DNA from: Rickettsiella grylli
Lineage (GTDB): Bacteria > Pseudomonadota > Gammaproteobacteria > Diplorickettsiales > Diplorickettsiaceae
Reading direction: 5' to 3'
NCBI RefSeq assembly: GCF_000168295.1
Contig: NZ_AAQJ02000001.1
Span: 893,001 to 957,000, forward strand
Length of the DNA stretch: 64,000 nt
Shown here: piece by piece, positions 56,251 through 58,225 of the stretch
Layout: each line of letters starts with the position of its first letter
Numbering within the stretch: position 1 is the stretch's first letter
Made by a program: the position numbers and the translations under genes
The notes under the pieces: generated by a model
Database searches by the model: none
Seen by the model: the letters and a program-made list of their open reading frames with translations, nothing else
What the model was told of the DNA's origin: nothing

Positions 56251-57033
56251 TTAAGAAAAATAAACCCCCGAAAGTAAATGATTATTTAACCATTTTGATA
56301 ACAAATTGGCTACAAAGTGTGCCGTTTGGGATTCCTGCATAAGACCTTTATCATAAACCGCTTCACACACATCCGCAAAACACGAACCTCGGCTTAATTG
56401 CATGAAGGCCAATGCTTCCGCCTCGGTTATCGACGTGACATAAGATTGCAACGCTTTACGCCAAACCACACAATACGTCGATATCTTCTGTAACTCAGGT
56501 CTCGGCTTTTCCTGAACGAAGGCTTGCCATACCGCATAAATATTATAATTGAAATGAAAATAACGAACAGACGGATGAAATGTAAAACATAACGAGGGCC
56601 AATTTTGTTCAGGAATTTCAGCAAGGGTTTTTACAGACAAACACGGTGCATCCGCTGCTTCTAAACACGCGTTCAATGCCTTAATCAATTGTGCTAATTC
56701 ACCGAGATACTGTTTTTCAGAATAAGGGGTGTTATCCATTAAAAACGATACGAAGGGTTCACTAAATTTTGAAATTGAATAAACCCGTGATGGATGCGCA
56801 TCAATAAATGCTTCAGCCAATGCCATAAACGCTTCATCACCTAAAAACTGAGCCAGTACTCCATATTCTTGCGCTAAAGCATCGACCAAACGCCAGATAT
56901 AAGCATTGCTATAGACCGCTAAACGTTCCCGCAGTGTCCCCTTTACTGGCTTTACCAGCCAATTTAAAATTTTCCCATTTTCATCCATTAAATGGGTTTG
57001 CATCGCGCGTTGCACATTAGCTAATGCAGACAT
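56251..57033 (-). CDS. DUF2063 protein, partner of MNIO enzyme (BufC/HvfC-like)
   Basis: A 260-residue protein of the DUF2063 (putative DNA-binding domain) family. The N-terminal ~90 residues include '[29 protein letters not shown]' type text, the family hallmark, and '[19 protein letters not shown]'. In bufferin, HvfABC and related systems the DUF2063 protein forms a complex with the DUF692 enzyme and recruits the precursor peptide. It overlaps the upstream DUF692 gene by 17 bp, indicating coupled translation and a stoichiometric complex. pyrG follows after one base. Confidence 0.85.
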
Positions 57034-57853
57034 GTTCTTTCCAGATCGTTTGTGCTCGTTTTTTGGCCTGTTGCAATTCAGTCAATAATACCGGAAACTC
57101 GGGTATATTATCATCCCGTTCTATCATCGTAGCCACTTTGCCAAATCGCTTTACCGCTTGCGTATAAAGGGACCATACCTTTTCAATAATAGGCGCATCA
57201 TGCGTATCAATAATATAATCGCCACAATTTTTATGACCAGCTAAATGAAACTGACGCACCCGAGGAATAGGAATCGCATTGATATACACTAGTGGATCAA
57301 AGTGATGATTAACAGCACTGACATAAATATTATTAATATCAAGCAGGATGAAACAGTCGGCTTGTTCAGCGACTGCCGTTAAGAACTCCCATTCGGTGAC
57401 AGACGAATCGCGGTATTCAATATAACTTGAAACATTTTCTAGCAAAATGCGTCGGCCTAAAAAATCTTGGACCTGTTTAACACGGGAAACGACGTGCTTC
57501 AATGCTTCTTCAGTATAAGGTAACGGTAATAAATCATGCATATTAAAACCATCAATACCCGTCCAACACAAGTGATCCGAAATCCAAACGGGTTGTAGTT
57601 TATCTGCGAGTGCTTTTACTTTTTTTAAATAGTCTTTATTCAACGGATCATAACTTCCTATCGACAAAGAAACGCCATGCAGCGCTAACGGATAATGTTC
57701 GCGGATGCGATGAAGATAATAAAGTGGCTTTCCTCCCGCGACTAAATAATCCTCAGTCATTGCTTCAAACCAATCGACTTTAGGTTGATGTTCTAAAATA
57801 TAGGGAAAATGTTGCGACCGTAAACCCAGACCAAAACCGAGAAAAGCATCCAT
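57017..57853 (-). CDS. DUF692 / MNIO-family oxidase (BufB/HvfB-like)
   Basis: A 278-residue TIM-barrel enzyme of the MNIO (multinuclear non-heme iron oxidase, DUF692) family, which modifies cysteines of ribosomally made peptides. It starts with the family's 'GFGLGLRSQHF', and the likely iron ligands are present: His59 ('LALHGVSLS'), Asp93/His94 ('SDHLCW'), Glu139 ('LLENVSS'), Asp172 ('LLDINNI'), His203 and His207 ('HLAGH'), Asp216/His218 and Glu245 ('IERDDN'). The site therefore looks functional. It follows a small Cys-rich lipoprotein gene, its likely substrate, across a terminator-like hairpin. Confidence 0.9.
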   Translation of the reverse strand: MDAFLGFGLGLRSQHFPYILEHQPKVDWFEAMTEDYLVAGGKPLYYLHRIREHYPLALHGVSLSIGSYDPLNKDYLKKVKALADKLQPVWISDHLCWTGIDGFNMHDLLPLPYTEEALKHVVSRVKQVQDFLGRRILLENVSSYIEYRDSSVTEWEFLTAVAEQADCFILLDINNIYVSAVNHHFDPLVYINAIPIPRVRQFHLAGHKNCGDYIIDTHDAPIIEKVWSLYTQAVKRFGKVATMIERDDNIPEFPVLLTELQQAKKRAQTIWKEHVCIS

Positions 57854-57886
57854 TGTCAGGATTAACCCATAAAAATCTTTTAATAA

Positions 57887-57914
57887 AAAAGCCGCGTACT
57901 ACTACGCGGCTTTT
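57887..57914 (-). terminator. Intrinsic terminator between Cys-rich lipoprotein and MNIO gene
   Basis: A perfect 12-bp stem (57887-57898 with 57903-57914, core GCCGCGTA/TACGCGGC) with a 4-base loop. On the minus strand it is followed by a run of six T. It lies 47 bp past the lipoprotein stop and 33 bp before the MNIO start. Such a partial terminator would let the precursor be made in excess over its modifying enzymes. Confidence 0.8.
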
Positions 57915-57961
57915 ATTGTACACAGTCTTATCATTAATGAACAGTCATTCCATTTAAGACA

Positions 57962-58225
57962 TTATCCATTCATTTGATTGGTTGCATTTTCAGCAGTTCT
58001 GCAGCGACGATGGCGATGTTTTTTGTATTTTGGAGGACATACTTGCTTACATTGACTCATGCATTTACAGGTATTACATGGCGTCACGCAGGGTGGAGGA
58101 CAAGATGCTTCACAGAGAGGCGTATTTTCTGGAATGTTTCGCGCACCTGTTGCACAACCTGATAAAAATATGGCGGCTGCAGTAGCAGCGATAACTAAAC
58201 CTGATTTTTTCATGATCATGATCAT
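57962..58225 (-). CDS. Cys-rich small lipoprotein, candidate MNIO substrate
   Basis: An 87-residue lipoprotein: hydrophobic signal (residues ~8-22), lipobox 'FLSGC' with Cys24, then a region with nine more Cys at 38, 42, 46, 50, 53, 55, 59, 63 and 75. Most are spaced by exactly four residues and mixed with Pro ('CPPPCVTPC'), followed by a basic stretch 'KYKKHRHRRC'. An AGGGG lies four bases before the ATG at 58225; Met3 and Met5 are alternatives. The four-residue Cys pattern, small size, export signal and position next to DUF692/DUF2063 genes resemble bufferin and HvfA precursors, but those carry ordinary signal peptides. Metal binding, possibly copper, is inference. Confidence 0.8.
   Translation of the reverse strand: MIMIMKKSGLVIAATAAAIFLSGCATGARNIPENTPLCEASCPPPCVTPCNTCKCMSQCKQVCPPKYKKHRHRRCRTAENATNQMNG

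Follow-up and report, generated by a model that had tools for sequence, protein, structure and literature searches.

The MNIO (DUF692) oxidases that depend on a PME1 partner and have been characterised so far install 5-thiooxazole, and their products generally bind copper; where products of this type have been tested functionally, they have been tied to that metal (PMC13097082). Bufferin clusters related to mercury detoxification also exist (PMC12452194). In bufferin and HvfA the Sec signal serves as leader (PMC13419390). A 'Cys-Lys' class of precursors, which includes BufA2, is recognised in PMC13097082, where FonBC is seen to reject NACKG sites; hence, Cys-Lys substrates need an MNIO of their own. 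Lipidation is also on record: about 16% of Buf2 bufferins carry predicted lipoprotein signal peptides (Antoine et al. 2025, PMC12452194), and DybA and NedA are MNIO products with lipidation shown by mass spectrometry, termed 'DAG-RiPPs', among the predicted members of which bufferins are listed (PMC12636315).

The window considered here, that is the whole stretch of DNA that was analysed, comprises 64,000 nucleotides of Rickettsiella grylli (contig NZ_AAQJ02000001.1, positions 893,001 to 957,000). Three adjacent minus-strand genes lie within it as an earlier note on this DNA had described, the DUF2063 gene overlapping the MNIO gene by 17 bp:

57962..58225, minus strand: precursor gene (bufA-like), encoding an 87-residue lipoprotein with ten Cys (open reading frame; orthologues; dN/dS)
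57017..57853, minus strand: MNIO (DUF692) oxidase, bufB-like, 278 aa (NF050167, PF05114, PDB 3BWW, conserved residues)
56251..57033, minus strand: DUF2063/PME-type-1 partner with RRE domain, bufC-like, 260 aa (PF09836, AlphaFold2 fold match)

The succession precursor-MNIO-DUF2063 is the bufABC order and, with a Cys-rich precursor bearing a signal peptide, it places the locus among captophorin/bufferin-type clusters. We consider it likely that the three genes form a bufABC operon and that its precursor, a Buf2-like captophorin of derived and lipidated type, is modified, anchored to the membrane and buffers copper. The gene content, linkage, selection, lipobox, partner fold, conserved motifs, terminator and covarying leader on which this reading draws were obtained by computation. 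The operon is a divergent form of a known system and not a new system, because lipidated relatives have already been reported; the earlier note had implied that the lipidated precursor was novel, and lipidation in itself was rejected as a novelty on account of the published lipidated bufferins and other lipidated MNIO products (PMC12452194, PMC12636315). A literature search (titles and abstracts) on Rickettsiella with bufferins or copper returned nothing relevant, and the literature consulted contained no report of this divergent precursor family in Rickettsiella-type bacteria, of its reduced Cys-Lys core or of the leader RNA.

With Buf2 (BUF_6/12Cys; NF050166 BufA2) the locus shares the bufABC order, a BufB-type MNIO, a DUF2063 partner, the signal-peptide consensus, Cys-Lys dyads and a predicted periplasmic fate, lipidation being predicted for part of the Buf2 family. 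It differs in that the precursor is undetected by the model, has lost the six-Cys CKG scaffold, with CKG changed to CKC, and adds variable CxxPC repeats and a His/Arg tail. The DAG-RiPPs lipo-DybA and lipo-NedA (PMC12636315) likewise derive from MNIO substrates with a lipobox, modified before export and then triacylated, whereas their cores are CPACGMG (ChrH type) or EGKCG (oxazolin type), and DybA differs also in its chemistry and MNIO subfamily. The captophorins fontiphorin, oxazolin/HvfA, gonophorin and bufferin 1 (PMC13097082) have the same combination of MNIO, PME1 partner and Cys-rich precursor, and 5-thiooxazole is predicted here as in captophorins. In contrast, theirs are Lys-Cys (EGKCG) or DUF2282 precursors, and the examples in PMC13097082 are without described lipidation, although lipidation is known for NedA, which is likewise of EGKCG type.

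Upstream of the operon stands a wecA-like glycosyltransferase gene and downstream pyrG; a DoxX gene, common in bufferin clusters, does not adjoin it. The precursor is present in 15 of the 16 genomes of the order and the MNIO in the same 15, the lone genome without either being 64% complete and 0.7 Mb in size. Gene order and strand are identical in the 14 loci measured, the 17 bp overlap of MNIO and DUF2063 recurring in 13 and amounting to 4 bp in the most distant. Eight named records, which include Rickettsiella massiliensis, Rickettsiella sp., Ca. Aquirickettsiella gammari and related MAGs, each show the precursor and then the MNIO. The earlier note had proposed to score the co-occurrence of precursor homologues with the enzyme, and an MNIO stands next to the precursor at each locus examined; precursor homologues lacking such a gene, which it had named as evidence against its reading, were sought among the 16 genomes of the order and the named records, and none was found. 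Within the genus, dN/dS is 0.16 for the precursor, 0.06 for the MNIO and 0.14 for the DUF2063 gene. Purifying selection acts on all three genes, and a trio kept across a family of genomes at such ratios is not due to chance. One genome (G004; L031, G004:C137) has a second MNIO match that covers profile positions 21-262 only and may be a paralogue, a strain mixture or contamination.

The DUF2063 stop and the pyrG start are one base apart (56249-56251), and MNIO, DUF2063 and pyrG are packed head to tail. The same succession is found throughout the Rickettsiella-type family and also in G106, a genome of another order. It implies that CTP synthase and the maturase genes may be transcribed together, and linkage to an essential gene could help to hold MNIO and DUF2063 in place. 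Such packing, together with a degenerate precursor core and variable repeats, would suit a bufferin system in decay, of which a remnant persists through linkage to pyrG. We regard this as highly improbable, given that dN/dS is well below 1 in all three genes, that the catalytic residues are invariant and that both the terminator and the covarying leader are retained. In the Rickettsiella massiliensis draft, pyrG (L068:8078-9731) appears as two overlapping frames, through sequencing error or a frameshift.

The MNIO scores 387.5 bits against the NCBIfam model of the bufferin maturase BufB (NF050167 MNIO_BufB; cut-off 310) and matches Pfam PF05114 (MbnB_TglH_ChrH) at E=2e-111. Its nearest solved relative by sequence is PDB 3BWW (7e-51), an HvfB-like MNIO (PMC13419390), to which the first part of the enzyme was aligned for the comparison of ligand residues. 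The iron ligands had been thought intact, and the ligand-type residues are indeed invariant in all 40 MNIOs compared (H59, D93, H94, E139, N175, H203, D216, H218 and E245). N175, D216 and H218 are probably the counterparts of N175, D242 and H244 named in HvfB (PMC13419390), the last two being matched by motif order. The genome (1.58 Mb) encodes this one MNIO only. In the MNIO tree, five lipoprotein-linked enzymes from outside the order group with the Rickettsiella MNIOs with weak support (44/79).

The partner matches PF09836 (DUF2063; E=4e-19) and scores below the cut-off of the HvfC model NF050145. A PDB sequence search with it gave no match, and its relatives came from fold comparison: the AlphaFold2 model (pLDDT 83) matches 3DEE and the TglI chains of TglHI (E about 1e-5), and its C-terminal part resembles RRE domains (TbiB1, lasso B1). 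The PF09836 match and the modelled two-domain fold with an RRE domain point to a PME-type 1 partner.

The precursor has 87 residues and ten Cys (24, 38, 42, 46, 50, 53, 55, 59, 63, 75), in agreement with the earlier description, and comprises the following parts:

58154..58225, minus strand: Buf2-like signal peptide and presumed leader (signal-peptide HMM; lowest dN)
58154-58165, minus strand: lipobox LSGC (Cys24) ending the signal peptide
58076..58114, minus strand: Pro-rich Cys tract C38/C42/C46/C50, a variable CxxPC repeat (0-2 copies among orthologues)
58046..58075, minus strand: conserved core N51-T-C53-K-C55-M-S-Q-C59-K60 (invariance; Buf2 alignment; G106 relative)
57998..58036, minus strand: basic His/Arg/Lys tail (dN 0.149; composition kept, sequence fast-evolving)

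The N-terminus consists of a K-containing start, a hydrophobic stretch and then the lipobox LSGC24, which had been recognised previously, with Ala at +2. Among 15 orthologues G23-C24 is invariant, with LSG or VAG before the Cys. Both LspA and Lgt are encoded in the genome (PF01252 and PF01790 over cut-off), so that, judging from the lipobox after a hydrophobic stretch and these two enzymes, the precursor should be lipidated and counts as a bacterial lipoprotein in the DAG-RiPP sense. The signal peptide is the most conserved region of the precursor (dN 0.022, dS 0.41, within the genus). An HMM of Buf2 signal peptides, built from 32 rows of other Gammaproteobacteria, almost all of SPI type (the exception, row L096, bears an atypical TAGC lipobox), places the precursor and all its orthologues above the other open reading frames of the window (E 0.0022 against 2.2 for the next), the Ala-rich composition in common adding to the score. 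Since a Sec signal is the leader in bufferin and HvfA (PMC13419390), a Buf2-like signal peptide fits recognition by the partner.

Beyond the signal peptide, the earlier note had emphasised an array of Cys spaced by four. The tract is present, but the list of spacings omitted Cys 53, 55 and 75, and the tract does not form the conserved core but is a variable repeat; with a copy number that varies from 0 to 2 it was ruled out as the functional core. The conserved parts are the bufferin-type signal peptide and the motif N-[ST]-C53-K-x4-C59-K, and the residues invariant across the 15 orthologues are C24, C42, C53-K54, S57 and C59-K60. C53 and C59, as the Cys of Cys-Lys dyads, are the predicted modified residues. 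Rates of change within the genus are lowest in the signal peptide, intermediate in the middle and fastest in the tail (dN 0.149). Lipidated relatives also carry His/Lys/Arg-rich tails. In G106 (L077:962-1264), in which pyrG stands after DUF2063, the MNIO-linked lipoprotein has a single mature Cys, within NSCK (GGNSCKKVVKKHHHHH). With KKVVKKHHHHH after its NSCK, this lipoprotein apparently has the smallest modification core of the group. The lipoprotein of G128 is without a CK dyad, and the CK rule is therefore not absolute. In G079 two tandem short lipoproteins with CK sites (L092:857-1045, 1228-1413) lie upstream of one MNIO.

The proposal that the lipoprotein is the substrate of the MNIO/DUF2063 pair is almost certainly correct in view of the strict adjacency, the leader-type signal peptide and the sole MNIO in the genome. 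The ten Cys (in CxC, CxxC and CxxxC spacings) and the His/Arg tail could nonetheless bind metal unaided, and the change of CKG to CKC affects the presumed site itself, as might be seen in an ordinary Cys/His-rich metal-binding lipoprotein with unmodified thiols, of which the MNIO modifies little or none. This seems to us quite improbable: the precursor adjoins an MNIO wherever it was examined, in a genome without another such enzyme; the MNIO is the most constrained of the three genes (dN/dS 0.06); the leader-type signal peptide is the best conserved part of the precursor; and a thiol cluster would explain less well than a modification site why one relative has only a single mature Cys, in NSCK.

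Kinship of the modified precursor to Buf2 has to be pieced together. None of the Pfam and NCBIfam models matched it, and plain membership of BufA2, defined by NF050166 above cut-off (60 bits) and six conserved Cys in a CxGxNxCKG...CKGxxxCKG scaffold, was ruled out since NF050166 gave no match. The sister-genus orthologue in G011 (SCKGASSCKGHSGCK) has CKG repeats and a weak BufA2 match (E=2.9e-5; 24 bits, cut-off 60), and judged by its sequence it bridges the window precursor and BufA2; G180, from another family, gives a similarly weak match (8e-4). A profile of the Rickettsiella family, built without G011, aligns with Buf2 over 56 columns at E=3.9e-5 and places NTCKCMSQCK on NACKGQNACK; without the signal peptide, the core aligns over ten columns only (E=0.13). 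With no family model match and a ten-column core, the case for homology rests on the leader, the motif, the context and the intermediates taken together. Where Buf2 has Gly after Cys-Lys (CKG), the window precursor has Cys (CKC), and in the literature no report was found of an enzyme tested on a CKC-type site. The closest MNIOs outside the order (65-69% identity) adjoin Buf2 or lipidated precursors, the latter mostly of CK type and mostly with His/Lys-rich tails. Free-standing MNIO substrates elsewhere in the genome were sought through the BufA2 model only, which gave no match, and one genome from each of three related orders supplied no lipidated precursors beyond those already found.

From these data we infer a pathway that links signal-peptide recognition, the modification chemistry and its sites, lipidation, the metal and the role of the RNA elements. 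The DUF2063/RRE partner would act in the cytoplasm, recognising the bufferin-type signal peptide as leader and presenting the chain to the MNIO. This multi-iron oxidase would oxidise the Cys of Cys-Lys dyads, predicted to be C53 and C59, and 5-thiooxazoles are the most likely products. After modification, the peptide would be exported by Sec, Lgt would diacylate Cys24 and LspA would remove the signal, leaving a membrane-anchored product, probably in the outer membrane (Ala at +2), with modified Cys, free Cys and the His/Arg tail. Alongside a CopA-type exporter, the anchored peptide may bind periplasmic Cu(I) and buffer it.

Copper buffering by the peptide is plausible. It is possible, though in our judgement rather unlikely, that the modified lipidated peptide has another job, as an envelope zinc, mercury or gold buffer, a redox or oxidant buffer or a host-facing lipopeptide, with specificity set by the His/Arg tail and the extra Cys. 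Bufferin clusters related to mercury detoxification provide a precedent (PMC12452194), the tail and extra Cys are strongly unlike the Buf2 sequences compared, and no copper-specific regulatory site was recognised upstream of the operon; against this, the tested PME1-type MNIO products are tied to copper (PMC13097082) and the genome encodes a Cu-translocating P-type ATPase (Cu-type P1B; TIGR01511 over cut-off). On the copper-buffering reading, the range of copper-type MNIO peptides would come to include an entire family of reduced, arthropod-associated bacteria that live inside cells, and the presence of the operon in every near-complete genome searched suggests that buffering of metals in the envelope is important within the host cell. 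Furthermore, comparison across the lineage leaves Cys-Lys sites as the candidates for modification, down to one Cys in a relative, so that the choice of sites by MNIOs on Buf2-type substrates could be tested directly on a small peptide. As a tentative extension, some lipidated MNIO products may make up a lineage whose canonical Cys-Lys-Gly scaffold has shrunk to one or two Cys-Lys sites with a His- or His/Arg-rich tail, forming a mixed thiooxazole/His metal site that is membrane-anchored and kept in every near-complete host-restricted genome seen, with a dedicated covarying mRNA leader that may sense or set expression.

Four elements outside the coding sequences bear on this expression:

58321..58348, minus strand: promoter-like element CTTGCA-16-TATAAA (sequence conservation)
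58264..58313, minus strand: 5'-leader stem-loop, TGTCACTC...TCGTGATA in this genome (covariation)
58251..58264, minus strand: invariant palindrome AGAAAAATTTTTCT, 14 nt, between leader hairpin and start codon
57888..57913, minus strand: intercistronic intrinsic terminator/attenuator AAAGCCGCGTA-loop-TACGCGGCTTT with a T-run (conservation; folding energy)

The promoter-like element is conserved in 14 upstream regions, more weakly in G011, and the RNA start predicted from it would fall just before the leader hairpin. Five of the eight pairs of the leader stem have changed on both sides (window and 12 related genomes, alignment A2); the covariation score is 0.383 against 0.206 when shuffled, with 0 of 500 shuffles as high and slid controls much lower, and the permutation test gave 8/40320. 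In the alignment row of G003 the right arm is shifted by two columns, and with that offset it pairs fully. No Rfam family covers the leader, and a known RNA family was set aside for leader and terminator alike, the only matches being sub-threshold and on the terminator region. Hairpins at 5' termini can stabilise abundant mRNAs, and by analogy we read the leader hairpin as an mRNA stabiliser; it may also be a sensor. The palindrome is identical in 13 aligned genomes, and its single exact copy in the whole genome ruled it out as a regulon operator.

A hairpin followed by T's occupies the precursor-MNIO gap in 14 of 14 genomes; 13 of them share an almost identical stem, and the one at the same gap in G011 is unrelated. 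The terminator folds at -18.7 kcal/mol (z=-4.5) and has a single copy in the window. A strong terminator after the precursor gene, combined with a 5' hairpin on the precursor mRNA, would yield far more precursor than enzyme. Most other buf-type loci checked (L074-L099, other Gammaproteobacteria) also have a hairpin and T-rich tail in this gap, from which precursor-enriched expression looks general. The precursor gene of G106 (L077) also seems to have a comparable leader ahead of it. In two genomes of another family, f17 (L076, L090), a CCAAC...GTTGG hairpin with 7-8 T lies just upstream of the ATG of the lipidated precursor; it resembles an intrinsic terminator and may act in attenuation or terminate the upstream gene.
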